Below, piece after piece: positions 13,908 to 45,401 of a stretch of DNA of 64,000 nucleotides. The position numbers were made by a program, and so were the translations under genes. The notes beneath the pieces were generated by a model that made no database searches, was not told where the DNA came from, and was given only the letters and a program-made list of their open reading frames with translations. Where the stretch lies: the IMG/VR virus record IMGVR_UViG_3300044729_004368, positions 1-64,000 of that record; one strand, written 5' to 3'. Source of the stretch: a virus. Each line of letters begins with the position of its first letter. Position 1 is the stretch's first letter.

Positions 13908-13908
13908 G

Positions 13909-14841
13909 ATGTTACTAGAATACTCTCTTGACCCAGAGATTTTTGAATCGGTTGAACAGTTTCAAAGAATTATCGAAGCATGCGGAATCTCCGAAGGGAG
14001 GTATATTGCCAATCTGCCATCACGGCGTTGGGAAGAAGTGGTTTTCAAATGGCTTCGTGCCAAAGATCCAAACAGAGCGCGACGTGCTGAAGAACTACTT
14101 ACTCAGTGCAAAAGACGCCACGGGTTGATTCCTTCTCGCGTAAGTAACTGCCCAGACTGGATTGAGGCTACCCTTGAGCAGCATAAGTCTCAACCATTTA
14201 AGGCAGTAGTAACCGAGAAAGAGATTTTTCCAGCTCGAATATCGCTCAATGATCTGTCTGTAGACACCGATCCTTGGAAGTCCAAAAGGGGCGACCGAAT
14301 ACCAATTGATGCAGTGTCAATCGGAAACATAGCTGCTCCTCTATTGAGAATTAGCAAGGAGATCGTTTTGCTAGATCCGTATTTTGATCCGAAAAAAGCT
14401 CGCTATCACGAATCACTTGCTCAAATTGTAAAGCATTCAATCCATGATGGAAAGAAACCGGAGCGATTCGAGTGTCATTGCAAAATTAACTTAAATCAGG
14501 TTAAACAGTCCCCTACGGATACCGCAGATGCGTGGTCGCATCGTTTCGACAAGGATTGCAGAACGAGACTGCCAGAACAACTGCCAAGTGGGTTTCAAAT
14601 GAAAATCGTTCTTTGGGATGAAATACCCGGGAAGGAAATCATGCATGCACGTTACGTTATGACAGAACTAGCGGCATTGAATTTCGAGCACGGTCTCGAC
14701 GACTCGGAGCGAGATGCAACGACTGATGTTTCATGGCTTTCTCCAGAAGTTCACCAATCGAGATGGGATGATCTTCAATTGAATTCGACTCGTTACCGTC
14801 GAATCCGATCGATTGAAATTGTTGGCAATGGAGCAACGTAG
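13909..14841 (+). CDS. PLD-like protein coupled to AAA ATPase
   Basis: The ATG at 13909 is chosen: it follows the ATPase stop by one base and has GAGG 9-12 bases upstream. The 310-residue protein has an unrecognised N-terminal half (about 1-135). Its C-terminal domain has features of a phospholipase D-like fold: a strand ending in LLDPYFD (near 160) and EIMHARYVMTELAALNFEHGLDD (near 250-270), where the H-x-R-Y and GLD spacing recalls one PLD or MIT_C-type active-site half. The HKD lysine is not obvious, so catalysis may be altered or absent. It is likely the effector or partner of the ATPase. The fold call is moderate and the role is inference. Confidence 0.6.
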   Translation: MLLEYSLDPEIFESVEQFQRIIEACGISEGRYIANLPSRRWEEVVFKWLRAKDPNRARRAEELLTQCKRRHGLIPSRVSNCPDWIEATLEQHKSQPFKAVVTEKEIFPARISLNDLSVDTDPWKSKRGDRIPIDAVSIGNIAAPLLRISKEIVLLDPYFDPKKARYHESLAQIVKHSIHDGKKPERFECHCKINLNQVKQSPTDTADAWSHRFDKDCRTRLPEQLPSGFQMKIVLWDEIPGKEIMHARYVMTELAALNFEHGLDDSERDATTDVSWLSPEVHQSRWDDLQLNSTRYRRIRSIEIVGNGAT

Positions 14842-14870: not shown

Positions 14871-14896
14871 AGGTGTTGGATAGGTATCCGTCACCT
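14871..14896. terminator. Interrupted hairpin between convergent genes
   Basis: An outer stem AGGTG/CACCT and an inner stem GGATA/TATCC are separated by a two-base internal loop on each side. The hairpin sits between the convergent ends of the PLD-like gene and brxL and overlaps the brxL stop. No T-run follows in either direction, so it is only a possible bidirectional terminator. Confidence 0.35.
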
Positions 14897-17079: not shown

Positions 17080-19614
17080 TCAATCAAAATCACTAGTGAA
17101 AGAACGTCTTAAAGTAAACGGCACTGTTTTGTATTCCTGGTAATGGGTCGTACCAGCAACTACTTCCTCCAGCTTGAGGACAACTTGTTGCTGGTTATAA
17201 GAGTCAGCAATCTTGGAGAGCACCAGACGCAGCTTGAGTTCTCGTTCACGAGGGTTCTCGCTCAACAAATCGAAGCTGATCTCGTGACTATCTGAAATGA
17301 GTTCCCCGTCGCCGGCATATAATCCGATCCGCAGCTTTCTCGCTTGGACCTTTTCAGTAATCGGAGCCGTTTGATAAAACACGAGTGCCAACTGCCCAGT
17401 CGAGATCACACTAGTTGTTGGTGGCAATAAATCGACGTCGACGGCGCTTACATCCGCTGCTCGCCGTTTTCGAATCTGGATCACCGGAATCACGATTTCT
17501 TGCAGTGTGCTTCCGCCGTGCATGAATCGAACACTCGCTCCACTTTTGCGGAGACGGTTGATGGACTTGGGGACAGCAACTTCCAAGTTTCCTTTGAGGC
17601 CGAGTTCCGCTGAAGTATAGAGCTTCGCACCACCATTGATTTTGAGTTGGCGTCCTAGCATGAACCGTCGATCTGACGCCGTCTCGTTACCGGTGATCTC
17701 CGCAGAGCTGAAATCGCTCTCTTCCACTTCGTCCTGGTAGATAAAGCCGTGATCTGCCGTGATCACCACGTTGGTCGCATTTGCGCTGGTCAACTTGCGA
17801 ACTAGCTTGACGATCTCCTCCATCGCTTCTTCGGTTGCCTCGAAGGCTTTGCGTTCCGTATCACGTGTATGACCTCGTTTATCGATGATGTTCTGATAAA
17901 CGTAGATCACATCGTGGTCTCGCACGAGTTCGCGGACCTCTTCCTTGGTCTTGGCAATCATCTCGTCTGCTTTGATCGCCAAAGCGCTTCCCTTGTTGGC
18001 TGCCTTCAGGATCTTGTCCCGATTCACAGTGCCGGAAGATGACTGGCCATTCAAGTTGACAGTGGGTGTCTTGTCAGCGTTAATCTGCAGCTCTGAGTGG
18101 GGAAGAAGTGCTGCCATGCCAAGCTGCGTATAGCTAGGCAAAACGGAAATCATGTGCTCGATCTTGGCCTCAAACTTGTCCTCGCCACGAATCAGCCGAC
18201 ACAATTCTTCACCAATCTCGAAACGCATCGCATCCGAGATGATCACATAGACCTTATTGTTCTTGTCCAGCACTCGCCCGACATAGCTCTTGTAGAAATC
18301 GGTTTGATGTCGCTGGCCAGGCAACGACCAACGCTCGAGCTTATCCACCAATTCCTGCCATCGGTCACCGAGTGGAAGCAGGAATGAATTGGTGTACATC
18401 TTACAAACCTGTTGGTTCAACGGGCCAAAGAACGTCGCTTGGCCTGCACGCACGCTGTGATAGATGAACTTGCGATAAAGTTGATCGACTTTGTAAAGCG
18501 AGCCGACGTAGGCTGCAACTCCTTGTTCAACCGAACTCAAATCGAGCGACAGAGTGTTTAGCATGTGCAACAATTCGGCCGCATACCCAACCGCCTCGTA
18601 AAGGTCTGCATACTCACGATACCAATGCCCGCGGCGACGCGAACGGATGACCTGCGTACATTCGCCGGCTGAGATCGTGCGTCCAAGGACTTTGCTTGCT
18701 AGTTCACTCAGTACGCGTTGATCGATTAGGCGGAAGTAGTCCACCTCAGCGAGTTGCTTTAGTTCGCGACTTTCGAGATCGTTGTGGATGCCCAGAACTT
18801 CGGAGAATCGGTCCGAAAGAGTCTCAAATGTCTTTTCGTGAGTGCGAGAATCCTTCCAACGTTTGAGGAATACCAAAGCCTCGTTGGTCATTTTCGATTT
18901 TGGATTCTGGATTTTGGGTTGGTCCGTTCCAAACTCCATTTCGTAGCAGGATTTGAAAAGAGAGAGAGCGAAGTCTTTTACTGAAGGTGCAGCACTTTCG
19001 TAGTTGTACGTCTTCTGAACTTGCTCCCACAGAAACGGCTCGAGTCCACATTTGGTGATCAACTCGTAACGCTTGAGTGCTGAATCCGACGCCAGCTCTT
19101 CTAGCAGGTTCTCCAGAACGCTATCGATTCTAGAATCGCTGTCGGCGCAAACGCTGAGCATTTTGATGCAAATCTGCGTCGTCGTATCGGTCTTGGTAAC
19201 TTGATCTTTCAGTTGATCGCGCCGTTTGGCACTGTTAAAGAAGAACTCATGGCAATTTACGATCGGACGAAACTCGTACGGCAACTCGAGCTCAGTTAGC
19301 CACAGAGAGGCTTTGTCGGTTCGGAAGTCGGTATGAGCAAGCTGGACATCGAGCAGCCAGTTATCGCGATCTTCCGGCTGAGGACCGGATTTGAAAACCA
19401 AGAATTTTTGTGCTGCTTGCTCGCGCAGCAGGCGATATTTGAGACCAAACTCATTGTTTGCGATTTCCACCTTCTCTACTCCTGGAAGGCTAATGGCGTC
19501 GAAGTCTCCGCGCAGCGATTCTTCCTCGTCGTACCAAAAGACGATTCGATGCTTCTTGAAGAGACGTTCCAAGGCATTTTGGATTTTCGATTTTGGATTT
19601 TCGACTGAAGACAT
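17080..19614 (-). CDS. pglZ: BREX phosphatase-like protein PglZ (type A)
   Basis: The 844-residue PglZ belongs to the alkaline phosphatase superfamily. Metal-site motifs are VIISDAMRFEIGEEL (near 456) and VVITADHGFIYQ (near 617), as in type A BREX-1 PglZ. It is an essential BREX core component acting with PglX and BrxB/BrxC. The N-terminus is odd: residues 4-14 (VENPKSKIQNA) are made by the 7-bp-period repeat that also spans the start codon, and no Shine-Dalgarno sequence is visible before the ATG. Native homology seems to begin at LERLFKKHRIVFWYD. A second repeat peptide (PKIQNPKSKM) lies near residue 235. The gene follows the 128-aa gene by 29 bases. Confidence 0.92.
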   Translation of the reverse strand: MSSVENPKSKIQNALERLFKKHRIVFWYDEEESLRGDFDAISLPGVEKVEIANNEFGLKYRLLREQAAQKFLVFKSGPQPEDRDNWLLDVQLAHTDFRTDKASLWLTELELPYEFRPIVNCHEFFFNSAKRRDQLKDQVTKTDTTTQICIKMLSVCADSDSRIDSVLENLLEELASDSALKRYELITKCGLEPFLWEQVQKTYNYESAAPSVKDFALSLFKSCYEMEFGTDQPKIQNPKSKMTNEALVFLKRWKDSRTHEKTFETLSDRFSEVLGIHNDLESRELKQLAEVDYFRLIDQRVLSELASKVLGRTISAGECTQVIRSRRRGHWYREYADLYEAVGYAAELLHMLNTLSLDLSSVEQGVAAYVGSLYKVDQLYRKFIYHSVRAGQATFFGPLNQQVCKMYTNSFLLPLGDRWQELVDKLERWSLPGQRHQTDFYKSYVGRVLDKNNKVYVIISDAMRFEIGEELCRLIRGEDKFEAKIEHMISVLPSYTQLGMAALLPHSELQINADKTPTVNLNGQSSSGTVNRDKILKAANKGSALAIKADEMIAKTKEEVRELVRDHDVIYVYQNIIDKRGHTRDTERKAFEATEEAMEEIVKLVRKLTSANATNVVITADHGFIYQDEVEESDFSSAEITGNETASDRRFMLGRQLKINGGAKLYTSAELGLKGNLEVAVPKSINRLRKSGASVRFMHGGSTLQEIVIPVIQIRKRRAADVSAVDVDLLPPTTSVISTGQLALVFYQTAPITEKVQARKLRIGLYAGDGELISDSHEISFDLLSENPRERELKLRLVLSKIADSYNQQQVVLKLEEVVAGTTHYQEYKTVPFTLRRSFTSDFD
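18890..18922. repeat. 7-bp-period repeat inside pglZ
   Basis: ATTTTCG/ATTTTGG/ATTCTGG units in series. They encode PKIQNPKSKM in PglZ without breaking the frame. Confidence 0.8.
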
Positions 19615-19643: not shown

Positions 19644-20030
19644 CTAGATCTGATGGGAAAATGGTGTGCTGATTCGGGCAAAGTCGGACTGGTGGATTTT
19701 ATAGGACTCGGCTCGCGACGCACCGGGTGGAATCGAACGCCCCGTGCACTGGAGCTTGGCATCAACTTCTATCTCAAAGTAGTGTCGTTCCTTTTCCCAG
19801 CTAAGGATGACATGACCTTCGTCTGTTGCAAAAAAAGAATCCGGCGGTCGCTGGTTGTTTGTTTGAAGATTGAGCAAAACCGCTTCCGCTAGCCCCGTTA
19901 CTTCGAGCCCCGGTGGATTTGCACCCTCATCGTTCCAATCGAATTCGTAAGCACGAATCTCCTGGAGTCGCTCATAGCATCGACGCCATCGCTCACCATC
20001 AGCCGTATCAGTGTCTGCAACCTCATCCAT
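19644..20030 (-). CDS. Small unrecognised protein inserted in the BREX operon
   Basis: The 128-residue protein is acidic at its N-terminus and has no known catalytic motif. The pattern FDWNDEGANPPGLEV followed by PPDSFFATDEGHVILSWE recalls a family of small uncharacterised proteins common in planctomycetes, a resemblance I hold from memory only. It is not a BREX core gene. It sits between pglX and pglZ, flanked by inverted copies of the 7-bp-period repeat, which suggests later insertion. An ATG starts the frame and the stop lies 29 bases before pglZ. The function is unknown. Confidence 0.6.
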   Translation of the reverse strand: MDEVADTDTADGERWRRCYERLQEIRAYEFDWNDEGANPPGLEVTGLAEAVLLNLQTNNQRPPDSFFATDEGHVILSWEKERHYFEIEVDAKLQCTGRSIPPGASRAESYKIHQSDFARISTPFSHQI

Positions 20031-20035: not shown

Positions 20036-20070
20036 CAATCCAAAATCGAAAATCGAGAATCCAAAATCAC
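20036..20070. repeat. 7-bp-period repeat, inverted copy, between pglX and the 128-aa gene
   Basis: CCAAAATCGAAAATCGAG-type units on the plus strand. This copy is in the opposite orientation to the other five and reaches the last codon of the upstream pglX. Confidence 0.75.
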
Positions 20071-23000
20071 TCTTCTTCCTTTGCATCCAGGCCTGGGATC
20101 TTGCGGAGGACTGAGCCGAAGAGTAGGTAGTTGTGCTTGACTCCGTCGTCGAGGTCGATGTCGATCTTGCGGGCAGCGACTTCGAAGAGGGGCTTCTCGT
20201 AGTCTTCTAGTTCTTTGAGTTGCTTCTTGATGGCGGCAACATCTTTGATGGCTTGCGTCTTCTCGGACTTGGAGGCGCTCGCGCTGTCGGCCAGCATCTG
20301 TTGATGCTCGGCGTGATGAGTCAGCTTGTCACGAAAATCTCGTAAGTAGTGCAGTACCGTACCGACCGTGTCGGGGCGGTAGCGGTGCATGTAGATCAGG
20401 GCGTTGAAGGTGCCTTTGGGGCTGCTGAAGAGCCAGTAGATAGGCCGTTTCTTGTAGAGCTTAATGTGGTGACTGTAGAAGTCTTTGAGGAAGTAGTCGC
20501 GGATAGTCTTCCGCTTTTTGACCGTCAGGTTGTCGGGATAGACGGCATCTTCGAGGAACTTTAGGTTCTCTTCGTAGTGCTCGGTACCGAAGGTGACTTT
20601 GAGAAATGTCTTCAATCTTTCAGTGATGTCGTCCTCGAACCAATTTCCATCGAGAAGCGGAATGACGTTGTCTTCATCGCACGCGAAGGTCGGCTCGGGA
20701 ATCTGTAGGCGATAGTCGTCGGCCGTTTCGCCTTGATTGGCAAGGATCAGTCCCGGTTTGTCCAACGAGTAGCGCCCCAACATGCAGCCCACCGCGTAGC
20801 CGATGAACTCTCGCATTGTGTCCGCAAGAAGAAGGGCTTCCAGTTCCGATTCGCTCTTGTCGTCGTCGTAGCGGTATTGAGGGTTGCAGTTAAGGGAGAT
20901 TTCGGCGACTGCGGGCGAACTTGGTAATTCATTTGAAAGCGAATACAACTCGTTCACCGTTTTGTTGAGTTGCCTCTCAAGATTTGCGACAAGCTGCGTC
21001 TGATCTTGCCATCTTGAGCGTTGTTTCGCATATCGGTCTTCCAACCGAATGGGGCTGCACAATGGACCGACAAGTTCGCTGGAAGTGAAGTCAATCGACA
21101 GTTCGCGAGAATCCCAGTCCTTGCGAGCGACTTCAACCACATCGTTGACCAAATCACCAACCAAATCCAGCACGCTTGATTCTGGAATCATCACTGGAAT
21201 GTTACCGACGTGGCCTGTTTCGTAGTTGAGTGTGGGGCTCAACACCTGAAGGCATCGGGCAACAAAGTGAGAATTCAACAACGCCAGAAAAAAGTCTTGA
21301 TATTGGTCTGAGAAGAGGCCCTTTCCGCCACTGCCGAAAATCGCATTTCTCATTACTCTCATTGAAGGCTTACCGCTTGAAATGCCCGACCACGTTATGC
21401 CTTGCCGAAAGTAGTATTCCGGGCTTACGATTCGTCCTCCAGCAGCACCTTTCGTCGCATTTCGAATGTCGCGGCCATTCTGCTCCCAATTTACCACATA
21501 CTCGATATTTCCATACCATCTGCGGAAATCGCCTCCTTTGCAGAATGGGTACCATCGATATTTCGCTATCTGCGTTGGGCCAACATTTTCAAAACCGAAT
21601 CCGACTCTCTGGTAGCCGACCTCGTACCATTGCCTTAAAAACGTTTGATTGTCGGTTGTATTGAGTCCACTCTTTGGCTCAGACAATTCATGAAGCGGCG
21701 TGCCGCGTGAAAAAACTTCCCGGAACTCCGGGGAAATGGTAAACGCAATTGGCTTGCCGGGCACTTTTTGAAACTCTTCCGACGACGCTGAGAATCTCCA
21801 GCTACAACTTGCGTCGTGTATGGCCTCGCGAGCTCTGCTGGCTTGAATGTTTGATCCATAGAATGCTTGCAGGTCAATGAACACGCCCTCGTAGTTCGCC
21901 CATTGGACCTTACGGAACGTGAATGCACATACCGGTACGAATGCAGAATCAAAGAAGGCGTGATATTCGGGGCGAACCAAAGACGTGATAGTACAATCCT
22001 CAAGAAGCGTTTGGCGCAATGCGGTGTACGATGACAAAAACATCCAAGTAAACGGCGTCATTAGACCAACGAAACCGCGATCAATTGTCTGGTCGATAAT
22101 TCGCTCGACGAACATTGCAAAAAGGTCGGCCTTTGTTTGCGGAAACTCACTTACAGCGAAACCCCGTAGGTCGACGTTCATTCCTTTGTGGCTCATATAG
22201 GGCGGGTTTGCGACGACGACGTGATACTTGGGACTCAGATATTCGGCCTGCCGCAGCGCCTTGAGCACTTTCTGGTGAACGCTTGCAAGGAACAGGTCTT
22301 CGCCCATCTGACGCTCGCTAAGTAACTTCAGCACTTCGCTCACGTCCGTCACTAGTGGACGGATCAGTGAACCAAAGTTATCCGCTTCCTTCCACTGATT
22401 AACGACTCCTTGCAAGCCGCCGCTGAACACGTCATGACCGACCTTGTCCATGTAAGCCGACAGGTCTTCGGGGTCGATCTGTATGTTCTCCAGCACGCAG
22501 ATGTTCGGATTTTGGATTTTGGATTTTGGATTTTGGATTGAAGACAAATCCCTTCCTGACGGGTCAGCTAACTCTTTTCGTGTGAAGAAGCGTTTGTCCT
22601 TCTCGCGAGCCTTCATCGTGAGCGCAAAGGCGGCCAGAGCGCCAGCTCGTTGGTCGATCTCAATGCCATAGAGATTGTTCTTCAGGATGAGCGTCGGGAT
22701 CTCGGGCTCGGGGTACTGTTCTTCGCGATAGATTTCATACAGCAGATCAAACGCGTATGTCAGCATGTGACCACTGCCGCAAGCCGGATCACAGACCTTA
22801 ATCTCCTCTGGACTCCCGATCGTTAAGAAATCGGATTCGGGTTCCTCGGGTTTGATGTAGTAGTCCATCCGCTCTACGAGCTTCGATGCGGGATGGTTCA
22901 GCATCCACAAGCGACCGAGCGAGTTCTCAACCAGATAGCGCACGATCCAGTGTGGCGTGAACAATTGAGTTGCTGCCGGAATGTTCTCCTCAGTGATCTT

Positions 23001-23693
23001 TTTGCCCTTCTTCAGTCCCTCAAAGACTTCGTCCTTCTTGTCGGCAATATAGAACTGGTAGAGCCAACCGATCACTTCCACCGACTCCTCGGTATGTTCG
23101 GGCGAGCAGTTGTTCGGCAGCAATAACTCGCGGGTGTATGCTGGAATCGACGTGCCGGACAGCAGATCATCCGGTAGTAATAGTTCCGTGTAGTCCGCAA
23201 TCTTCTCGAACATGAACGGCATCAGTGCGTGGTAGTAGTTGCAAACTGCTACTAGCAGCAATCGATAGGCTTCGCCCTGCGGATCTGCGCTCTTGTCTGA
23301 ACCATCTAGCAATCGCATAACTTGTTTGCGGGTCGTCTCTGTCACCAACTCTTCATCGATATGCCCCATTTTGGCTTCTGCGAGGATCTCCGGTTGGAAC
23401 TGGCCATCGGCTGGCGACAGGACACCAATTCGAGTGTAGCGATTTACATCCATGTACCGGAGTGCGCAGAAACGATTGAACCATGTATATGCGACCATCT
23501 CAATAAGACGTTTCTTGCCAGCTTCACTCGAGCCGAGTTCCTTAATCTTCCTTTCAAGTTCTTCAATGACCTTCGGACTCTCGCGTCTCGCCAGACTACC
23601 CTCCGCCAAAACGGTCGTTAAACGCATACTCACCTGCTCAATGAGCGCTGTTCTGGTTAAGGATGCGAATTTTCGAAGTTTGCTAGTTTCCAT
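20067..23693 (-). CDS. pglX: BREX adenine methyltransferase PglX, downstream copy
   Basis: A full-length 1208-residue PglX. Motif I is VCDPACGSGHML (near 299) and motif IV is VVANPPYM (near 494), giving an N6-adenine methyltransferase that marks host DNA and takes part in phage exclusion. The first ~500 and last ~270 residues closely match the second pglX in the operon. The central region (about 510-900), expected to hold the target-recognition domain, differs strongly. A repeat-derived peptide (SIQNPKSKIQNP) lies near residue 390. The gene begins METSKLRKF and follows the other pglX by 58 bases. It is intact, with both motifs present. Confidence 0.93.
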   Translation of the reverse strand: METSKLRKFASLTRTALIEQVSMRLTTVLAEGSLARRESPKVIEELERKIKELGSSEAGKKRLIEMVAYTWFNRFCALRYMDVNRYTRIGVLSPADGQFQPEILAEAKMGHIDEELVTETTRKQVMRLLDGSDKSADPQGEAYRLLLVAVCNYYHALMPFMFEKIADYTELLLPDDLLSGTSIPAYTRELLLPNNCSPEHTEESVEVIGWLYQFYIADKKDEVFEGLKKGKKITEENIPAATQLFTPHWIVRYLVENSLGRLWMLNHPASKLVERMDYYIKPEEPESDFLTIGSPEEIKVCDPACGSGHMLTYAFDLLYEIYREEQYPEPEIPTLILKNNLYGIEIDQRAGALAAFALTMKAREKDKRFFTRKELADPSGRDLSSIQNPKSKIQNPNICVLENIQIDPEDLSAYMDKVGHDVFSGGLQGVVNQWKEADNFGSLIRPLVTDVSEVLKLLSERQMGEDLFLASVHQKVLKALRQAEYLSPKYHVVVANPPYMSHKGMNVDLRGFAVSEFPQTKADLFAMFVERIIDQTIDRGFVGLMTPFTWMFLSSYTALRQTLLEDCTITSLVRPEYHAFFDSAFVPVCAFTFRKVQWANYEGVFIDLQAFYGSNIQASRAREAIHDASCSWRFSASSEEFQKVPGKPIAFTISPEFREVFSRGTPLHELSEPKSGLNTTDNQTFLRQWYEVGYQRVGFGFENVGPTQIAKYRWYPFCKGGDFRRWYGNIEYVVNWEQNGRDIRNATKGAAGGRIVSPEYYFRQGITWSGISSGKPSMRVMRNAIFGSGGKGLFSDQYQDFFLALLNSHFVARCLQVLSPTLNYETGHVGNIPVMIPESSVLDLVGDLVNDVVEVARKDWDSRELSIDFTSSELVGPLCSPIRLEDRYAKQRSRWQDQTQLVANLERQLNKTVNELYSLSNELPSSPAVAEISLNCNPQYRYDDDKSESELEALLLADTMREFIGYAVGCMLGRYSLDKPGLILANQGETADDYRLQIPEPTFACDEDNVIPLLDGNWFEDDITERLKTFLKVTFGTEHYEENLKFLEDAVYPDNLTVKKRKTIRDYFLKDFYSHHIKLYKKRPIYWLFSSPKGTFNALIYMHRYRPDTVGTVLHYLRDFRDKLTHHAEHQQMLADSASASKSEKTQAIKDVAAIKKQLKELEDYEKPLFEVAARKIDIDLDDGVKHNYLLFGSVLRKIPGLDAKEEE
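22505..22541. repeat. 7-bp-period repeat inside the downstream pglX
   Basis: The cleanest copy: about five perfect 7-bp units of GGATTTT. It encodes IQNPKSKIQNP just before a conserved NICVLENI segment. Confidence 0.9.
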
Positions 23694-23751
23694 TAGGTAC
23701 TTCGGTTTTCAGTTCGTGTTTGCATTCGATACTCTTAAATTCAAAACCTAC

Positions 23752-26700
23752 CTAATCGACTTTGTCAGCCAGACCGGTGATCTTGCGGAGAACTGGACCG
23801 AAGAGGAGATAGTTATGCTTTACACCGTTGTCGAGGTCGATGTCGACGTTGCGCATTCGGCTCGCGACTTCAAAGAGGCTCTTCTCGTACTCTTCGAGTT
23901 CTTTGAGCTGCTTCTTTATGACAGCAACATCCTTAACTGCCGTGGTCTTTTCAGCTTTAGATTCACTAGCACTGTCAGCTATCCCTTGGCGCTGCTCAGA
24001 GTGGTGTGTAAGTTTTTCGCGAAAATCTCGCAAGCATTCGAGAACCTTACCGACCGTTTCGGGGCGATAGCGGTGCATGTAGATAAGCGCGTTGAATGTT
24101 CCCTTGGGACTACTGAAGAGCCAGTAGATCGGCCGCTTCTTGTACATCTTGAGGTGATAATCGTAGAAATCCTTCAAAAAGTAATCGCGGATTGACTTTT
24201 GCTTCTTCGCTGTCGGATTTTCCGGGTAGAGTGAATTCTCCAAGAACTTGAGGTTCTCGCTATAATTCTCTGCACCAAAGGTGATCTTCAAGAATTCTTT
24301 GAACCGCTGGCTGATGTCATCGGAGAACCATTCGCCTTCGAGAATGGGGATAACGTTGTCTTCGTCTGGAGCAAACAACGGCTCAAAAATTTGCTTGCGG
24401 TAGTCGGCGGCGGATTCTCCTTGATTGGCAAGGATCAGTCCTTGTTTTTCCAACGAGTAACGTCCGAACATACAACCCACTGCATAGCTGACAAACTGAC
24501 GCATCGTGTCGGCAAGAAAAAGCTCTTCAAGTTCTGAATCGTCCTTACCTTCCTCGTACTGATAGTGAGGGTTGCACGCTAAAGTGATTTGCTTAAGTGG
24601 TGGACATATCAAATCGCCAAACTCGGATTGAAGTTCAAAAGCATCAACAAACAGCTTGTTGTTGGTTAATTCTAACTCTTGAGTATTTCGAATTGTCTTA
24701 TGACTAGCTTCTTGGAAGGAACGGAAAGCCGCCTCAAGCGTCGACGCTCTTTGTTCGTCTGTAAGTATGGGGCTGCATTTGAAATCCCAAGAAGTCTCAG
24801 ACGCATCCCAATCGCGTTTTGCGATGTCTACGAGTTGGCCGACTATTGTTGAAACAGCAGACTTTACACTTGAATTAACAGGAAGGCATGAAATGTTTCC
24901 GACCTGAAAATTTAAAGTCGGATTAATGAATTTGAGGAACTCTCTACTACAAATTGAATTCAACAGTCCACAAACAAAATCGTTGTCGGCTCCCGCAATT
25001 ATTGATGGGGCACCATTATCAAAGATGAAGCCTTTAGGGTATCGACGCACGCCAAACTCACCAGAGGTTACCAATCCCCAGCTTACAGATGGCTGGAAGT
25101 ACGACTCCGAATTGCGAAAAACGGCTTTGCCGGTATCCTTCAATTCTTGCCCGTTGTTCTCGTAATTTACAACAGATGACTGAAAACCGTACCATTTGCG
25201 GTATCCGCCAGCTTTATTGTACGGATAGAACTTTTTGCCTCCAAAGTGTGATAGTTTCGATTGGCTAATCTCAAACCACTCTCTAATAAATCGAGCGTTT
25301 TCTCCGGTTTGGAGCCCAGCGTTGGGTTGATACAACTCACCGAGCTTTGGATTGTTAGTGAAGGAGTCACGAATGCCTTGGGAAATCCAGTATGCGATTG
25401 GCGTGCCGGGAACCAATCCAAAATCTGACTGACGATAGCGAAATGAGTTGTAGCTCTTATCTAAGAAAAGTTCGCTGATCTCTTCGGCCTTTCTCACTTC
25501 GACATGGCGTTCAAAAAGTCGCCGGTAGTACCCAAAGCATCTTATGTCGGGTAAACGATTAATAAAAACGAAAGCGACAGATCCGAAATCTGAACCAAAA
25601 ATTCCCCGACCAAGGTGTAGGAGTGAGCTTATCTGATTTCTGGCTACCAAATCCGTGCGAAATTCTTCGAAGCTTGACAAGTACATCCAGGAGGGAAGGT
25701 TTATCATTCCCCACACAGCATTTTCGAGGGAGATTTCGCTCGCTCTTTGCATGAAGCATGTCATTAGGTCGGGCTTTGCAGATGGAAAGTGCTTCTTTAC
25801 GAAATCCTTCATCTGTGCATTCATTCCACTTCCGCCCATATATGGCGGGTTTGCAATAACGACGTGGTACCTGGACGTCAAATATTCGGCCTGACGGAGC
25901 GCAGTCATCACTTGTTGGTGAACTTTTGCAAGAAACAAATCTGGGCCCACGTGTCGCTCGCGCAGCAGATGCATCACTTCGCCCATGTCTCTCGACAGTG
26001 GACGGATCAGCGAACCAAAATTGTCCGCTTCCTCCCATTGATTCACAACCGCTTGCAGCCCTTTTGTGAATAGGTCACGACCAACTTTGTCCATATACGC
26101 GGACAAGTCATCGGAATCAATCTTGATGTTTTCGAGAACACAAATGTTCGGATCTTGGATTTTCGATTTTGGATTCTCGAATGAGGAAGAGTCCCTTGCA
26201 GAATTGTCGGACCGTGGGCTGCGAGTGAAGAAGCGTTTGTCCCTCTCGCGGGCCTTCATCGTCAAGGCAAAGGCGGCCAACGCACCTGCGCGGGGATCGA
26301 TCTCGATGCCGTAGAGGTTGTTGCGAAGGATGAGTGTCGGAATCTCGGCTTCTGGGTACTGTTCCTCGCGATAGATCTCGTAGAGCAGATCGAATGCGTA
26401 CGTCAGCATGTGACCGCTACCGCACGCTGGATCGCAGACCTTTATTTCTTCAGGGCTGGAGATCTTCAGAAAATCAGTCCCAGGTTCTTCGGGCTTGATG
26501 TAGTATTCCATCCGCTCGACGAGTTTTGAATCGGGATGATTGAGCATCCACAAACGTCCAAGCGAATTCTCTAACAAATACCGAACGATCCAGTGAGGAG
26601 TGAACAGCTGAGTTGCTGCAGGAATATTCTCGGGCGTAATCTTCGCTCCCTTCTTGAGCCCGTCGAATACCTCGTCTTTCTTGTCGGCGACGTAGAACTG

Positions 26701-27330
26701 GTAGAGCCAACCGATTACTTCCACTGATTCCTTAAAATCTTCTATGTACTGCGGCAGGGAATTGATCGGAAGCAATGCTTCCCGGGTATAGGCGGGAAGC
26801 GATGTTCCTGAGAGCAAATCGTCCGGTAACAATAATTCCGTATAGTCAGCGATCTTCTCGAACATGAACGGCATCAGCGAGTGGTAGTAGTTGCAGACCG
26901 CCACTAGCAGCAATCGATAGGCTTCCCCCTGCGGATCTGCGCTCTTGTCGGAACCATCCAGCAATCGCTTAACTTGCTTGCGAGTTGCCTCTGGCACCAA
27001 CTCTTCATCGATATGCCCCATCTTGGCTTCTGCGAGGATCTCTGGCTGAAACTGACCATCGGCTGGTGACAAGATACCAATGCGAGTGTAGCGATTCACA
27101 TCCATGTACCGCAGCGCGCAGAAGCGGTTGAACCATGTGTAGGCAACCGTCTCAAGCACTCGCTTCTCGCCAAGATCTTTGATCCTCTTTTCGAGATCCT
27201 CAACGACCTTCGGACTCTCTCGACGTGCGATGCTCTTCTCAGCCAGCACTGTCCTCAAACGAGTCCCCACTTGCTCAATGAGCGCCGACCTGGCGAACGA
27301 TGCGAATTTCCGTAGCTTGCTAGTATCCAT
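23752..27330 (-). CDS. pglX: BREX adenine methyltransferase PglX, upstream copy
   Basis: The start is set at 27330 because MDTSKLRKFASFARSALIEQV then matches the other PglX and the gene begins four bases after the nuclease stop. The longer in-frame ATG at 27405 would overlap that gene. The 1192-residue protein carries motif I VCDPACGSGHML (near 300) and motif IV VIANPPYM (near 493). Its middle third, starting just after motif IV, is unrelated by eye to the other copy. Two intact methylases therefore probably recognise two different sites. It contains a repeat peptide, SFENPKSKIQDP. Confidence 0.93.
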   Translation of the reverse strand: MDTSKLRKFASFARSALIEQVGTRLRTVLAEKSIARRESPKVVEDLEKRIKDLGEKRVLETVAYTWFNRFCALRYMDVNRYTRIGILSPADGQFQPEILAEAKMGHIDEELVPEATRKQVKRLLDGSDKSADPQGEAYRLLLVAVCNYYHSLMPFMFEKIADYTELLLPDDLLSGTSLPAYTREALLPINSLPQYIEDFKESVEVIGWLYQFYVADKKDEVFDGLKKGAKITPENIPAATQLFTPHWIVRYLLENSLGRLWMLNHPDSKLVERMEYYIKPEEPGTDFLKISSPEEIKVCDPACGSGHMLTYAFDLLYEIYREEQYPEAEIPTLILRNNLYGIEIDPRAGALAAFALTMKARERDKRFFTRSPRSDNSARDSSSFENPKSKIQDPNICVLENIKIDSDDLSAYMDKVGRDLFTKGLQAVVNQWEEADNFGSLIRPLSRDMGEVMHLLRERHVGPDLFLAKVHQQVMTALRQAEYLTSRYHVVIANPPYMGGSGMNAQMKDFVKKHFPSAKPDLMTCFMQRASEISLENAVWGMINLPSWMYLSSFEEFRTDLVARNQISSLLHLGRGIFGSDFGSVAFVFINRLPDIRCFGYYRRLFERHVEVRKAEEISELFLDKSYNSFRYRQSDFGLVPGTPIAYWISQGIRDSFTNNPKLGELYQPNAGLQTGENARFIREWFEISQSKLSHFGGKKFYPYNKAGGYRKWYGFQSSVVNYENNGQELKDTGKAVFRNSESYFQPSVSWGLVTSGEFGVRRYPKGFIFDNGAPSIIAGADNDFVCGLLNSICSREFLKFINPTLNFQVGNISCLPVNSSVKSAVSTIVGQLVDIAKRDWDASETSWDFKCSPILTDEQRASTLEAAFRSFQEASHKTIRNTQELELTNNKLFVDAFELQSEFGDLICPPLKQITLACNPHYQYEEGKDDSELEELFLADTMRQFVSYAVGCMFGRYSLEKQGLILANQGESAADYRKQIFEPLFAPDEDNVIPILEGEWFSDDISQRFKEFLKITFGAENYSENLKFLENSLYPENPTAKKQKSIRDYFLKDFYDYHLKMYKKRPIYWLFSSPKGTFNALIYMHRYRPETVGKVLECLRDFREKLTHHSEQRQGIADSASESKAEKTTAVKDVAVIKKQLKELEEYEKSLFEVASRMRNVDIDLDNGVKHNYLLFGPVLRKITGLADKVD
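26151..26183. repeat. 7-bp-period repeat inside the upstream pglX
   Basis: A diverged copy (ATCTTGG, ATTTTCG, ATTTTGG, ATTCTCG units) at the position homologous to the repeat in the other pglX. It was therefore present before the duplication or was transferred by recombination. Confidence 0.8.
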
Positions 27331-27334: not shown

Positions 27335-27883
27335 TCACTTTTGCTTTCGAACGCGACCGGTAACTTTGGGAACTCGCTGGATTCTGTACTCCGGATACCT
27401 TTCATTCCACTTTTCGATGGGTAGCACTATGCATTGTTGAATGTGCTCTCGCACCCAAGGCAACTCTCCCTCATTCCGCAAGCTGTTGTAAAGTTTATCG
27501 CTGAAGTTATTGAGAATCCCTAGTTGGATATTGTGCGAAAGTGCTTCCAGCCCGATAACGACGACATATACAATTGGCTTGTTGTCTCTTCCCATAAGAT
27601 GTTCATGGGCGTAGGAATCGCGAGCCTTGGGAGTCAACTCCTCATTTAAAACCGAACCATTGCTCAATCTTCGTGCGTAGTCCAGTCTCTCGCCATCAAG
27701 CATTTGGCTGTGCGAGGGATCCTTTATTTCAACAAAAAGAATGTGGTCGGTTCTTTCGATTACGAAATCAACAAGCGCCATTCCGACTGGAAGCCGTACT
27801 CCCTGCCGATCTAAAACTCGCCACGAAGTACCTTCAGCAAACGTGAATAACAACTCCTTTTCTTTGTATATATTGCCTAACAT
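27335..27883 (-). CDS. PD-(D/E)XK nuclease-like protein in the BREX operon
   Basis: A 182-residue protein with a REase-like core: ALVDFVIERTDHILFVEIKDPS supplies D39 and E53-x-K55, and a helix follows. The start codon overlaps the stop of the ATPase gene by one base (TAATG), so the two are translated together. It occupies the place of ariB in PARIS-containing BREX operons, but I see no DUF4435/TOPRIM features. It may be a toxic nuclease released or controlled by the ATPase, or a BREX accessory. Nuclease identity is from motif and spacing, not from a search. Confidence 0.7.
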   Translation of the reverse strand: MLGNIYKEKELLFTFAEGTSWRVLDRQGVRLPVGMALVDFVIERTDHILFVEIKDPSHSQMLDGERLDYARRLSNGSVLNEELTPKARDSYAHEHLMGRDNKPIVYVVVIGLEALSHNIQLGILNNFSDKLYNSLRNEGELPWVREHIQQCIVLPIEKWNERYPEYRIQRVPKVTGRVRKQK

Positions 27884-29082
27884 TATTTACTTCCCCCGAG
27901 TGCTCGACGCACCTCTTCGTCGTAAAGCTCAGCGAAAGAATCCGAAATCGCGTTCTGATTAAGAAGTCGATACTCATTTGCAGTTTCAACACAAACTTCG
28001 CCAGTTTCTTCATTGCGATACAGCGCATGAAATCGAACGTCATCGTTGTGCTTGGCGTCTTCCAGGAGGTCGAACCACTTAAGCAAAACGTAGTCATGCG
28101 TTGCCAGCACGATTTGTTGGCCGTTGCGTGACATATTGAGCATCACTTCCACGATCAATCGCATTAGCGTGGGATTTACATTGGACTCTGGCTCGTCCCA
28201 AAACAATGTTCCTGAATTGCCGGGCGAAAGAGATCCGTTGGCTAGAAGCTGCTGAAGAACACCAAGCTTTTTGAAGCCTTCTGCCGTGATATGTCCAGGC
28301 TGCTCGCCGTCCTTAACGGGCACAAAGACGGTATCAACATCGTCAGCGACCTGCGGCAACGAAGGAGACTCGCCGTCCGAAAGCTCTTTTTGGGCGATCT
28401 TCGCGACTTGTCTGCTACGCTTTCCAGCAGTCTCTTGATAGGTCCCCGGAATGAATCTGAGGTGACTTTCCTTTATTTCATACCTACCACGTATGGCATT
28501 CGTGATTCCCGGCAATAACGTACCAATGCGTGGATCTCGGTCGACATCAACCTTTACGTCTCGCCGCAGAAGCTCATCGCAAAGATCCAGATAAGAGTCA
28601 TCGAATAAGCTCAGTACGGCCAGATTATCCAAACCAACGGCGACGATGCCGGGCAAGAACGACAACACCTCTTTGGCAGGGAAGAAAATAGGATTATTAC
28701 ACGGCGCCAGCTTCGTTTGTTGTGTCTCCAGTAAAACGCTCTTAGCGCGAGGCTTAAAGCTACACTTATTTTTCTGTCCATCTGCAAATGCAATGTCTAG
28801 TAATGCTGACTCTTGAGACTGCCGATGGACAAGTTCCCTTAGGTGTTGCTCGCCTGGGAAAAACACTCGAAGAAGCTTTTCCGTAAACGACTTACTTAGA
28901 TCGCTTTTCGACTTCTTGTCGCCATCCAACAGTGATTGCCACGAGCTCAACGCGTACGCAGCCTTGAGCAGGTGCGTTTTTCCAGTTCCATTCTCGCCGA
29001 CAATCACATTGATCTTAGGAGAGAACTCGATAGATGCCTTCTTGAACACCGAAAAGTTCTCGAGTTGTAAACTTTGGATCAC
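27883..29082 (-). CDS. ABC/SMC-like AAA ATPase in the BREX operon (AriA-like position)
   Basis: The 399-residue ATPase has MIQSLQLENFSVFKKA at the N-terminus and Walker A GENGTGKTH near residue 30. A Walker B strand TLFWDEPESNVNP lies near 300 and an IVLATHDYVLLKWFD switch region near 330. It uses a GTG start that overlaps the brxC stop (GTGA). ATPases of this class sense phage proteins in PARIS (AriA) and related modules. In some Salmonella BREX loci ariA-ariB lies between brxC and pglX, the same slot as here. Whether this is a true AriA homologue needs a profile search; the ATPase call itself is firm. Confidence 0.82.
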   Translation of the reverse strand: MIQSLQLENFSVFKKASIEFSPKINVIVGENGTGKTHLLKAAYALSSWQSLLDGDKKSKSDLSKSFTEKLLRVFFPGEQHLRELVHRQSQESALLDIAFADGQKNKCSFKPRAKSVLLETQQTKLAPCNNPIFFPAKEVLSFLPGIVAVGLDNLAVLSLFDDSYLDLCDELLRRDVKVDVDRDPRIGTLLPGITNAIRGRYEIKESHLRFIPGTYQETAGKRSRQVAKIAQKELSDGESPSLPQVADDVDTVFVPVKDGEQPGHITAEGFKKLGVLQQLLANGSLSPGNSGTLFWDEPESNVNPTLMRLIVEVMLNMSRNGQQIVLATHDYVLLKWFDLLEDAKHNDDVRFHALYRNEETGEVCVETANEYRLLNQNAISDSFAELYDEEVRRALGGSK

Positions 29083-32000
29083 AGTTGTACCCGATTCCCT
29101 TCGTTCACTACCTTCAGCATCGCTACTCGCATATGATCTAGGTATTGATCGATATCTTCCTTGGTTTCAAGCCATGGTTTGTCGAAATCGACTTTTAGAC
29201 TGGCTTGCGCGACGTACTCAATCGCTGGCTTTGCAGGGGAAGGAGTCGTGTCTCCAGCTCCATCGGGAACCGGTGGGGGCTTGGGTGCGGTCCACTGTGT
29301 TACGCGAGATAATATTGAGGAGTAACCGTTGGTCTCAAAGCGAGTCGCTGCTTCCTTCACCACTGCGATCAACGGTTGGGACTTGATCTGCTCGATCGTC
29401 TCATAAACTATCGATTCGATTTGCTGCTTCTGTGCATCCGATAGCTTGTCGTAGCCTTCGATCGAAGCGAGTCTCTGGACTTTCGAGGTTACCGCTTGCT
29501 CGGCAGCCGCTCGAGCCTCGGTGGCCAAATTTCCCAACCGGCTGCGTAGACTATCCAGGAGTGTCTTGACTTGCTTCATGCCATTTCCGGCAAAACAGCG
29601 AGGGTCTTCGAGCAACTTCTTTAGTTGTGTATGTTCATCGCCATCCAGGTAGGAGAAGTTCGTAGCATTGTGATCGATGAACGATTTCGCTTCCGCGTAT
29701 AGCGAGGCTTGTGGGCCAGCCATGAAACGACGTACCGGATCAAGGATCTGCTCTTTGAGATCGAGCAATCGCTCCGAATCGCCATCGAATTCGGCAAGGA
29801 AATGCTTGAACGATTTACGAGTCAGTTTGGCAAAGTCATCGACATGCGATGAGAGCGTTGAAAGGAACGGATACTCGCGATTGCGTGCGACGAGCAACTG
29901 CAGTTCGCCGTGAAGTTTCTGGAATGCCCCTGCGGTCTCTTCTGCAAGCGCCCGAGCTTCGTTGGATCTGGCCGGCGTGTCGAAGAACTGGGAGAAGAAT
30001 TCCTTCAACTTTCGAACGGCCCCGGCACCAAACTCGATTTGCGGCTCGAGCACCATGTTGCCGTGTTTCTGCGTATTCTTCAGGGCAGATGCAAGTGCTG
30101 CATCCTCGAGCAATTCACCATCGCAACGAACCTCGACTTTACCGCGTGCCACAAGTTTGGCCAGCACGCACTGGATCGCAGGGAGAGGCCAACCAAACGG
30201 TCGCTTCTCGAAATCGTCAACCAACATCTTCATAGTGGGACGAATGCCCTTGGCCACGTTGCGACTGATCGAACCAAGCATCTCTGTTTCTGGTTCCGTG
30301 ATCGTGGCTGCATCGTTGCCAAACAATCCGTCTGCTGACTCATTTAGACACTGGTCAATCTGAGCTTCCGTGAACGACACCCCGCGAAGCATCGGAAGGT
30401 TGGTGTAGGTTTGCTCGACCAGCTTCTCAAAGCCATCGTGGACCCGCATGTTAGGATCTTCCTTGGTGCTTTCGACCAACGATCCAGCCACGAACATCTG
30501 AGCTTTGCCCATCAAGCGTTTGACGAGTTCAACGATCTGCATTTGAAGCAGGCGATTGCTCTCGTTCTTATTGCCAATGATCTGCTTGACGTTGGCCTTC
30601 TTGGCTGTGGCATAGTTGATGCCGACATACTTTGCCGTTTGCTTCATCAGCGTGATGTCGCGAATCAATCGATCGTCCGGTGGCAACAATACCGTCAGCT
30701 CGGATTTCCCCATGTAAGTCATGCGGACATGTTCTGGATTTCCCGAGTGTTCGTGGAAGGGGCTGATGACATGTACGCCAAGCTCATGCTCTCGCCCATA
30801 GATCTTATCATCGAGCTTGCGAGTGAATGAGAAGTCTCGCTTGTTAGGATCGTACCGCAGCTTCTTCGTCTTTAGCACCTTGTCGAAAATGATTTGGTGC
30901 AACTCATCGGCGACTTCCGCTGCGTCGACTTCGGTGTTCTTGATCTCTTGCTCGACATCTTTCTCTTCGTCGGTCAAGAATTCGTAGTATTCACCGTTGC
31001 GCTGAATGTAGATTTGGTTCTCGAGTAGGCTGAGTGCCTCTTCGACGTCCTTACGGAGCTGGGTCAAATCTTGATCGAATCGGCTGATCATCAGGACGCA
31101 GAGATTGGGAACCGATGCCTTGAACTCCTTAACGTACTTCACAAGCAACAGTGCTTTAAGCAAGCGGACGGCAAGTTCATTGTCGAGATTGCGTTCTGCT
31201 GCGCGAACAGACAAGAGATGGCTCTTGAGTGTCGAGCTGATGCCTTTGTACATCAGATCGAATGTTGCGAGCTCGCCGATGGTACTGTCTGCGATTTGGA
31301 TTGCAACTTCTTGAAAGACTCCCAGCATCGATCGCTCACCAACGCTGCTGTGCTTTCCTTCGAAGGCGTTGTGGACCGATAGGCCACGGATCGCTAGCTG
31401 AAACAATTCGAATTGATAAGGGATGAATGGATAGCAATTGCAAAAGTGATCTTCGTCTTGGAAGTTCCGGTACTTTTGCCCCTCGGAAAAGTCGAAAAGC
31501 GTGCGGAAATTTCCCGACTCAGTTTTATAGACCGGGAGGAGCGCTTTGACGCCATCCTCCGTCTTGGCAAGCAGTCGCTTTTGAATGACCTCAGCCACAT
31601 TGGTGCTGGTGAGCTTCATGCGATTGGCGAAGCGAGCTTGGATTTTGGAGAATCCGTCGCCTTGTTCCGATGACATCTCGCCGATGACTGTGGTCATTTC
31701 CTCTTGTGCTGTGACGAGAATCCAAGCGCGACCACGGCATTTGGTTGCGAGACTTTCCGCGATCGTCTGTAGGTTGACCAAAAGCTTGTCGTTCTTGGCA
31801 ATGTATTGCCCCACTTCATCGACGAAGAAGTTCAGCCGAAAGTCTTTGCCTTTGCGGTCAACGTAACGTTTGACTTGTTCGGCAAAGTCTTCGATGGAGA
31901 GCTTGTAATCATCACGGTGCTTGTTGATCACCTCCGAGACCGATTCGCCGGTTACTTCGTTGTAGGCTTTGTCGATACTGCTACCAACACGGATCACTCG

Positions 32001-32582
32001 CTCTCGGCCACTATCCCAAGTCATGCCGGCGTGTTTCTCGAACGCCTGTTTGAACTTGTCGAGAAGGCCGTCTTCGTCCAATTGTCGCTCGAAGTGGGCG
32101 ATGTATCCTTGCTTGCCGTAGTAGCCGCACTTTTCATCGAATACCTTCACGAAAACAGCGAGCAAGGCATCGACGTCCTTTTTGCTGATCACATCGGCCT
32201 TCTGGTCGATGTTGAATAGGATGCTTTCCGATGGGATGGCCACAGCTTTGGCAATCTTAGCTGCCAGCAACTTATTCTTCTTCTCGCACTTCCGCTGAAA
32301 GACTTCGCTAACGTTAATGCCATCAAAATCACGGCCCGCAAGAAGCATTGCCACCATCTTGAGTAAGTGCGATTTGCCGGAGCCGAAAAAGCCCGAGATC
32401 CAGACGCCGTTTGCATTCTCGTACTTGATGTATGCGTCAAGGAAGTCGTCTAGTCGCAGTTCGAGTTCATCCGTGATGACATACTCTTCCACTTCAGTCC
32501 GTAGGCTGGCATCATCATCTGCCTTGATGACGCCCTCGATTGGCCGATCAATCGGAAATTCGAATATTTTGCGGAGTTGCAT
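29079..32582 (-). CDS. brxC: BREX ATPase BrxC
   Basis: BrxC is the large P-loop core protein of type I BREX. The start is taken at the ATG at 32582 (MQLRKIFEFPIDRPIEGV), which fits the family better than the upstream in-frame start at 32636. The 1167-residue protein has Walker A GFFGSGKSH at 64-72 (the glycine-rich part GSGKS). A FFVDEVGQYI Walker B-like strand lies near 250, and AAA sensor segments follow. It is preceded closely by brxB and overlaps the ATPase gene downstream by four bases. The C-terminal ~300 residues are helical and end with an acidic GAGDTTPSPA linker. Confidence 0.93.
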   Translation of the reverse strand: MQLRKIFEFPIDRPIEGVIKADDDASLRTEVEEYVITDELELRLDDFLDAYIKYENANGVWISGFFGSGKSHLLKMVAMLLAGRDFDGINVSEVFQRKCEKKNKLLAAKIAKAVAIPSESILFNIDQKADVISKKDVDALLAVFVKVFDEKCGYYGKQGYIAHFERQLDEDGLLDKFKQAFEKHAGMTWDSGRERVIRVGSSIDKAYNEVTGESVSEVINKHRDDYKLSIEDFAEQVKRYVDRKGKDFRLNFFVDEVGQYIAKNDKLLVNLQTIAESLATKCRGRAWILVTAQEEMTTVIGEMSSEQGDGFSKIQARFANRMKLTSTNVAEVIQKRLLAKTEDGVKALLPVYKTESGNFRTLFDFSEGQKYRNFQDEDHFCNCYPFIPYQFELFQLAIRGLSVHNAFEGKHSSVGERSMLGVFQEVAIQIADSTIGELATFDLMYKGISSTLKSHLLSVRAAERNLDNELAVRLLKALLLVKYVKEFKASVPNLCVLMISRFDQDLTQLRKDVEEALSLLENQIYIQRNGEYYEFLTDEEKDVEQEIKNTEVDAAEVADELHQIIFDKVLKTKKLRYDPNKRDFSFTRKLDDKIYGREHELGVHVISPFHEHSGNPEHVRMTYMGKSELTVLLPPDDRLIRDITLMKQTAKYVGINYATAKKANVKQIIGNKNESNRLLQMQIVELVKRLMGKAQMFVAGSLVESTKEDPNMRVHDGFEKLVEQTYTNLPMLRGVSFTEAQIDQCLNESADGLFGNDAATITEPETEMLGSISRNVAKGIRPTMKMLVDDFEKRPFGWPLPAIQCVLAKLVARGKVEVRCDGELLEDAALASALKNTQKHGNMVLEPQIEFGAGAVRKLKEFFSQFFDTPARSNEARALAEETAGAFQKLHGELQLLVARNREYPFLSTLSSHVDDFAKLTRKSFKHFLAEFDGDSERLLDLKEQILDPVRRFMAGPQASLYAEAKSFIDHNATNFSYLDGDEHTQLKKLLEDPRCFAGNGMKQVKTLLDSLRSRLGNLATEARAAAEQAVTSKVQRLASIEGYDKLSDAQKQQIESIVYETIEQIKSQPLIAVVKEAATRFETNGYSSILSRVTQWTAPKPPPVPDGAGDTTPSPAKPAIEYVAQASLKVDFDKPWLETKEDIDQYLDHMRVAMLKVVNEGNRVQL

Positions 32583-32644
32583 GGTGTATCGTCGAAAGCT
32601 AAATGAAATTGGTTTTAAGTCGTCACTAAGTTGCAATCACTGAC

Positions 32645-33256
32645 TTATGTCTCGCGATCAAAGATGTTGAAGGCGCGATAGTACTTGTCGTCATGGAGCC
32701 GTCCGAATAAATCCAGCGACGCCCCCTCCTCAAGCGAGTGTGAGTAATCGCCAGGGAAGAACATCACCATAGGATGAGACTTGGCGACGCTCTGTAAGTT
32801 GTTCAAGACTGTATGCGATCTGATGTACGGAAACACTTCGCCTACGCCAGACAAGAACAGCACGTCAAACTCGGTGGCACGAATCTTCTCAGCAATTGCT
32901 GGGGCGAGTTTCGTCTCCGAATCGGTCAGGTTCATAAAGGCCTTTTCGAGCTCTGATTTGGAAATGGTCGACTCATTCTCAATCCAATATTGCCAGTCGC
33001 CTTCGGCATCCATGAGCTCCTTACTCAAGTCATAGAGATTGATCTCTAGGATGCGAATGCCTTTGTGGCGAAGCTTGTTGATCAACTGGCCGCGAATGGC
33101 TTCGATTTCCAAATGCTCAGTTGGGCAGTATGGCACGACAAAGAACGGCACTTCCTTGCCGATCCCTTCCATGCGTAAGAATCGTTGGCTACTGATCACG
33201 TTCAGCAAGTGATCGAAGCGAGTTGCTATCGGAGCTTTCTGTAGATCGTTTGGCAT
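32645..33256 (-). CDS. brxB: BREX protein BrxB (DUF1788)
   Basis: The 203-residue protein matches the DUF1788/BrxB pattern: FDHLLNVISSQRFLRMEGIGKEVPFFV at the N-terminus and a central DVLFLSGVGEVFPYIRSH segment. VMFFPGDYSHSLEEGASLDLFG then leads into a C-terminal YYRAFNI. BrxB is a small BREX core protein that contacts PglZ in characterised systems. It begins two bases after brxA ends, and brxC follows. Confidence 0.93.
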   Translation of the reverse strand: MPNDLQKAPIATRFDHLLNVISSQRFLRMEGIGKEVPFFVVPYCPTEHLEIEAIRGQLINKLRHKGIRILEINLYDLSKELMDAEGDWQYWIENESTISKSELEKAFMNLTDSETKLAPAIAEKIRATEFDVLFLSGVGEVFPYIRSHTVLNNLQSVAKSHPMVMFFPGDYSHSLEEGASLDLFGRLHDDKYYRAFNIFDRET

Positions 33257-33257
33257 A

Positions 33258-33869
33258 TTAAGTCACCCGTCCGTTCTCAATCACCAGTGGGAAGAAAAGC
33301 AGGTGGCTTGATGAGTCACGCTGGAGAACTTGAATGAAGCGACCGGAGACCAAGGGAGATGAAATGATTCCGTCGTCCGAAACCAACTCGGATTCTCTGA
33401 GCATTCGAAGCATGACTGTCTGAAGTTTGGTTAGTGTTGATGGGGTTAGCTCCTCCAATTCTTCGTGCCACAAGGTTTGCGATTCGATGAACTTCGCAAC
33501 ATCGACCGCATCTATCGCGTAGTCGAGCTGTAGGAACTTGGCACGTAACACATCGCGTGCCAATTCAGCGAGAAGCGGATATTTGAGGCAGCATGCTAAC
33601 CACAGAATGAGCTTCTGTTCCAACCGCGTTCCATTGACCAACAGTGCCAATTGATCAGCTGTTAGGCACTTCATGCGTTGGGAGATCTCATGCAGTTTGC
33701 GTTTCGCAGTACTAGGCGTGCGGCTTTGAAGTAGATTCTTTTGTTCAACCTCAATGAGTGTCGTATTCCAGTCGTGATCGTTCCTCAAAAGGGCTTCGGC
33801 AACAACGATTGATTCGTTGTATAGAAGTCCTCCCGCGGTAAACGAAAGCGCGAACTTGGTCTTGCTCAT
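33258..33869 (-). CDS. brxA: BREX protein BrxA (DUF1819)
   Basis: BrxA is a small DNA-binding BREX core protein. KFALSFTAGGLLYNESIVVAEALL at the N-terminus is the family hallmark. The ATG at 33869 is preferred because GGA lies eight bases upstream and homology starts at once; an in-frame ATG at 33881 would add four residues. The protein is about 203 residues long. It is the first core gene and follows the small regulator gene by about 65 bases. Confidence 0.92.
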   Translation of the reverse strand: MSKTKFALSFTAGGLLYNESIVVAEALLRNDHDWNTTLIEVEQKNLLQSRTPSTAKRKLHEISQRMKCLTADQLALLVNGTRLEQKLILWLACCLKYPLLAELARDVLRAKFLQLDYAIDAVDVAKFIESQTLWHEELEELTPSTLTKLQTVMLRMLRESELVSDDGIISSPLVSGRFIQVLQRDSSSHLLFFPLVIENGRVT

Positions 33870-33935
33870 GCACGTGTCCATGTGAGTATCGGCGAAACGA
33901 CGTTTTTGGGGCGTTATCGGCTTTTGTTCCTTTTA

Positions 33936-44697: not shown

Positions 44698-44699
44698 GA

Positions 44700-44930: not shown

Positions 44931-44947
44931 TGTGAAAGGGCCGGGAT

Positions 44948-45397: not shown

Positions 45398-45401
45398 GAT
45401 G

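Follow-up and report, generated by a model that had tools for sequence, protein, structure and literature searches.

The window analysed in this study, namely the whole stretch of 64,000 nucleotides at positions 1 to 64,000 of the IMG/VR virus record IMGVR_UViG_3300044729_004368, carries a BREX island with two genes between brxC and pglX, one for an ABC-type ATPase and one for a small nuclease-like protein. The locus raises the question of what this pair is and what it does within BREX. The original prediction assigned it to the "PARIS slot" and suggested that it could be a PARIS variant, with an AriA-type ATPase and a different effector, guarding BREX against phage inhibitors.

The BREX island and its gene pair

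Type 1 BREX is complete in the window (BrxA, BrxB, BrxC, two copies of PglX, PglZ of type A, and BrxL), and the open reading frames confirmed that both genes of the pair are sited between brxC and pglX on the minus strand. The features are as follows.

33258..33881, minus strand: brxA
32645..33256, minus strand: brxB
29079..32636, minus strand: brxC, bordering the cassette slot on the left
27883..29082, minus strand: HEC-02A-type ABC ATPase, 399 aa (Pfam AAA_21/AAA_15)
27883..28065, minus strand: C-terminal tail of the ATPase (residues ~340-399), co-varying with nuclease type; proposed docking element
27335..27883, minus strand: HEC-02B-type PD-(D/E)XK nuclease, 182 aa (D39 / E52-x-K54; D25 and K86 near-invariant)
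23752..27330, minus strand: pglX copy 1, bordering the cassette slot on the right; start moved to ATG 27330
20067..23693, minus strand: pglX copy 2
17080..19614, minus strand: pglZ, BREX-1 type A
14895..16967, minus strand: brxL with a C-terminal PLD/HKD-like domain (MIT_C)

The two predicted gene overlaps are real: the ATPase gene starts with a GTG that overlaps the brxC stop (GTGA), and its own end joins the nuclease gene at TAATG. The mechanical ORF of pglX copy 1 starts at 27405 and overlaps the nuclease gene; this overlap is not real, because the BREX-type start is ATG 27330 (MDTSKLRKFA...), 4 bp past the nuclease stop. The tandem pair of complete pglX genes (20067-27330) is also present in L008 and L034 (L numbers denote the loci compared), and a 128-aa ORF at 19644-20030, between pglX copy 2 and pglZ, has no family match.

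Phage-type genes (tape measure, head protease, portal, and large terminase) are located at 42619-61714 beside the BREX island, and the phage-side neighbour genes are common to two more IMG/VR contigs, L007 (identical) and L008 (93% over 2.5 kb); therefore, the window BREX appears to be carried by, or to adjoin, a phage. Divergent from brxA, a GmrSD-type gene with an extra C-terminal RAMA domain occupies 34355-36535, its top PADLOC matches being Orf5, HEC-06, and type IV restriction. The stretch 12249-14841 holds a second ABC ATPase of 552 aa (top PADLOC matches NsnB, PDC-M55A, and HEC-03B) and, overlapping it downstream, a 320-aa protein without a family match; these two possibly form a further ATPase-effector pair.

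In the ATPase of the pair, the Walker A motif (GENGTGKT, 29-36), the Walker B motif (WDEPE, with D296/E297), and H329 are each invariant or close to it, and Pfam matches are limited to AAA_21/AAA_15 and related ATPase domains. In PADLOC, the HEC-02A profile PDLC04213 matched residues 1-396 with 337 bits, versus 67 bits for AriA and 50 bits for Mad3 (MADS). A PDB profile search using a profile of 11 ATPases as the query gave 53 bits for PtuA, about 41-44 for OLD/Rad50, and 33 for AriA. The predicted structure, modelled like the others from loci of the scans with plasmid-record rows left out, was nearest to Rad50 and SMC heads and to PtuA, which in Septu and the retron is the ATPase holding a nuclease; AriA was absent among its best 50 structural matches. 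The assignment to the AriA type thus holds for the kind of protein (ABC/OLD-type) and fails for the subfamily.

For the small protein, the HEC-02B profile PDLC04220 matched residues 5-172 with 194 bits (PADLOC), and no Pfam match was obtained. E52 and K54 are present in 72 of 72 homologues, and D39, D25, and K86 in 71 of 72 each, so that the catalytic residues are retained across homologues of 20-74% identity; this conservation argues for an active enzyme. The predicted motif was correct at D39 and off by one at E53 and K55, the true positions being E52-x-K54. In the confidently predicted fold (pLDDT 92.6), E52 and K54 lie on strand 48-54 and D39 at the start of strand 40-43, placing the motif on the core sheet of a REase-like order of strands and helices, as expected for PD-(D/E)XK. 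The best plausible structural neighbours are the PD-(D/E)XK proteins EcoO109I, Nt.BspD6I, Hjc, and endonuclease I, none of them at E <= 1e-3. Neither DUF4435 nor TOPRIM was matched in the window protein or in ~73-74 nuclease relatives, as anticipated. Judged from these profile matches, the pair is a member of the known candidate defence class HEC-02, not of PARIS, and its description as an ABC/OLD-type ATPase with a non-DUF4435 PD-(D/E)XK protein, forming a module in BREX, stands.

The brxC-pglX junction as a cassette slot

Relatives were found on two plasmids (Methylomonas and Sphingobium) and 80 genome contigs. The same pair recurs in the brxC-pglX slot in 47 of the 57 homology-found loci with both flanks, a proportion that describes loci collected by ATPase similarity and is not a frequency for BREX at large. 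Among the remaining loci, eight have a split pglX with the pair after the first half, L030 has it after the first pglX, and L057 has the ATPase without a detectable nuclease; in L013 only the ATPase is annotated. The halves of the split pglX measure ~600 aa, the pair directly following the first one (L027, L028, L032, L035, L036, L063, L066, and L076). In 64 of 81 loci the two genes of the pair share a 4-bp overlap, and this coupling, taken together with the recurrence of the pair, is far beyond chance. The two proteins very probably constitute one functional module. As the ATPase is at times kept without a detectable nuclease (L057 and L013), it may also have a role of its own.

Searching 383 Pseudomonadales genomes with the nuclease alone returned six matches, all beside the ATPase in BREX-1, and a nuclease-only pattern scan of the genome contigs gave no match. 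Beyond type 1, the pair is present in BREX type 2 (Polaromonas, L011) and in type 3, where an IMG/VR viral contig carries it between pglXI and a BrxH-type helicase gene (L096, 9992-11532). It apparently exists without BREX as well (Comamonas, Paracoccus, and Pseudanabaena). Since relatives exist outside BREX-1, the broader family does not depend on BREX.

Among the 46 classifiable BREX loci found via BrxC or BrxA, the slot was empty in 19, held the pair in 9, and held other genes in 18; class-wide BrxA searches turned up too small a number of BREX loci to support a wide census. Profile matches, or similarity to a representative with such a match, identified the following other contents.

PsyrTA: L115, L117, L121, L137
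Schlafen-type AlbA_2 gene (~589 aa): L113, L116; also upstream of the pair in several loci
GmrSD-like HEC-05: L133, L134, L136
PDC-M25: L135
PDC-M47/PD-T4-4-like: L143, L144
PDC-M21: L128, L129, L131
Xre-RES (by annotation): L153

The loci with PsyrTA or the Schlafen-type gene in the slot (L113, L115, L116, L117, L121, and L137) are in Pseudomonadales genomes.

On the BrxC tree, presence and absence of the pair switch at least 14 times. In L102, whose slot is empty, brxC meets pglX at TGATG; the related locus L042 carries the pair at precisely this point, flanked by TGATG on either side. Based on the tree changes and the L102/L042 junction, the pair is a movable cassette rather than a fixed part of BREX; the latter possibility was ruled out by close BREX relatives without the pair and by the changes on the tree. 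In related loci, the junction of brxC and pglX acts as a cassette slot.

Exchange of the nuclease with the ATPase tail

The Spearman correlations of pairwise identities over 49 loci were 0.95 for BrxC-PglZ, 0.60 for BrxC-ATPase, 0.25 for ATPase-nuclease, and 0.15 for BrxC-nuclease. In the comparisons L017/L019 and L006/L022, BrxC is 97% identical, the ATPase 89-90%, and the nuclease 30-31%; DNA identity is mostly 87-100% up to ATPase codon ~320-340, just past the H-loop, drops to 30-60% through the nuclease, and is regained within ~60-120 bases of the pglX start. Among BREX loci with ~97% identity elsewhere, the nuclease is swapped in one block with the final ~50-60 ATPase residues. Fast evolution alone is insufficient as an explanation, since L027 and L035 combine distant BrxC (61%) with close nucleases (84%). 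A milder exchange was observed between the window and L008, a 91%-identical relative: DNA identity of ~90% across brxC and the initial part of the ATPase gene gives way to 70-87% over the remainder of that gene and 49-82% over the nuclease gene, before rising to ~83-100% in pglX.

Four nuclease types were distinguished, each with its own matching ATPase tail.

Type 1 (window): '..SAISDTFAELYDEDV.RALG'
Type 2: '..NAIANTFSDLYDEEIKRSLGG'
Type 3: '..NPIDEAFGFLINQEIENDMGGLGK'
Type 4: '..NAIADTFNELTKEQV.KKMGGLGK'

With BrxC controlled, ATPase residues 361-380 followed nuclease similarity with a partial rank correlation of 0.52 (0 of 200 permutations); by the same measure, residues 61-120 and 301-360 showed no tracking of nuclease type, and the mid-ATPase stretches 121-220 and 241-300 gave weak values of 0.12-0.17. 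Among 62 loci, ~24-25 switches of nuclease type fall on the BrxC and ATPase-body trees, versus 3 on the nuclease tree. The tail is likely to be the docking determinant for the nuclease, although its co-variation with the nuclease could merely mark the end of a recombination block. HEC-02 is rather probably a plug-in effector of BREX, with an ATPase body largely inherited with its BREX locus, a unit of tail and nuclease repeatedly replaced by recombination, and the junction as the general slot.

Function of the pair and comparison with known systems

The reading that we favour, and consider reasonably probable, is that of a BREX-associated HEC-02 module in which the ABC-type ATPase holds and gates the small PD-(D/E)XK nuclease. 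Its computed support consists of the gene coupling, the intact ATPase site, the near-invariant nuclease site, the cassette slot, and the block exchange. The ATPase tail (residues ~340-399, with a helix at its end) would dock the nuclease and hold it inactive until either a signal from a phage or a BREX-blocking phage inhibitor altered the state of the ATPase. The freed or activated nuclease would then cut nucleic acid, which might be DNA of the phage or, in a suicidal response, DNA or RNA of the host. A swap of tail and nuclease would allow the same sensor body to drive different effectors, presumably under pressure from phage inhibitors. The chances are about even that the module is a back-up or guard of BREX and not an independent defence.

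Alternatively, the nuclease might be auxiliary to restriction, that is, an extra DNA-cutting arm beside PglZ against unmethylated phage DNA with no suicide trigger. PD-(D/E)XK is typically a DNA-cutting fold, the pair has been recruited in BREX types 1, 2, and 3, all six nucleases of the Pseudomonadales search are in BREX-1, and a role of this kind has already been proposed for some BREX REases. However, there is little support for a link of the nuclease to PglX recognition specificity, as its type barely follows PglX or the recognition domain of PglX (partial correlation 0.09 overall and at most 0.11 per comparison window, BrxC controlled); moreover, the BREX loci without the pair are otherwise complete (L102, L109, L141, and L150). 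We consider this alternative unlikely.

An addiction module, with a nuclease toxin and an ATPase antitoxin stabilising the BREX island on a mobile element, would fit the toxin-antitoxin genes found elsewhere in the slot (PsyrTA and Xre-RES) and the exchange of tail and toxin as a block, which resembles cognate toxin-antitoxin pairing. Yet the ATPase gene comes first, it encodes a full ABC ATPase with all motifs, beyond the needs of an antitoxin, and in L057 it is present without the nuclease; this alternative is quite improbable.

The least plausible alternative, to which we give very little credence, is a true PARIS variant in which AriA would detect Ocr-like inhibitors and a PD-(D/E)XK nuclease would have taken the place of the effector: it draws on the broad Pfam families AAA_15 and AAA_21, the two-gene ATPase-effector arrangement, and the embedding in BREX as in Salmonella, but it is countered by the HEC-02A match far above AriA, the rank of AriA below PtuA, OLD, and Rad50 in the PDB profile search, its absence from the best 50 structures, the lack of DUF4435/TOPRIM, and the different slot. 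PARIS membership was rejected on these grounds, and a PARIS variant by descent is mostly refuted. The slot label itself was mistaken, as the Salmonella ATPase/DUF4435 pair STM4493/STM4494 (ariA-ariB) lies as an indel in the pglX-pglZ interval (PMC9009780). In Salmonella, deletion of the BREX-embedded PARIS left defence unweakened, Ocr was no trigger, and no activity was seen against the phages tested (PMC11341690); therefore, embedding alone is no proof of guarding.

Returning to the gated HEC-02 module, this analysis corrects the PARIS label and gives a HEC-02 catalogue entry a mechanism that can be tested. The pattern of tail swaps predicts workable ATPase-nuclease combinations and provides a way to ask whether the effectors of ATPase-gated antiviral modules are replaceable parts. 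Natural controls for the effect of an embedded module on BREX are available in L102/L042 and in L113, L115, and L061 (with versus without the pair), and the brxC-pglX slot is a hunting ground for defence-gene candidates.

Among known systems, HEC-02 in PADLOC-DB is the closest, with a near full-length match of both proteins and adjacent genes; as far as found, it is a computational candidate only. In a literature search covering mostly non-subscription journals, we found no paper naming HEC-02 for this ATPase-nuclease system and no experiment on the pair or its anti-phage activity. In Rakesh & Krishnan 2026 (PMC12839542), OLD-ABC/nuclease pairs, including those with PD-(D/E)XK, are proposed to be back-up suicidal effectors of BREX, and 594 taxa are reported to have alternative nucleases. 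These modules resemble the present one in having an ABC/OLD-type ATPase next to a non-TOPRIM nuclease inside the BREX operon, and the general idea that an OLD-type ATPase and a PD-(D/E)XK nuclease form a back-up effector for BREX is already published. The sections of that article covered here give no account of the brxC-pglX slot, cassette turnover, or joint exchange of tail and nuclease; we regard the slot, the HEC-02 turnover, and the tail-nuclease exchange as new relative to the literature covered, which is mostly from non-subscription journals.

PARIS (AriA-AriB) shares with the pair an ABC ATPase, a small nuclease, and occasional embedding in BREX, and differs in ATPase subfamily, in the TOPRIM/DUF4435 effector fold, and in its pglX-pglZ position in Salmonella. 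Septu and retron Ec78 (PtuA-PtuB) provide the nearest ATPase structure and the logic of an ATPase-gated nuclease, whereas PtuB belongs to the HNH nucleases, the PtuA chains in solved structures exceed the ATPase of the pair in length (up to ~550 aa), and no PtuA was identified in the brxC-pglX slot. The joint exchange of tail and nuclease is comparable to the exchange of toxin modules in polymorphic toxins, here inside an intracellular antiviral module.
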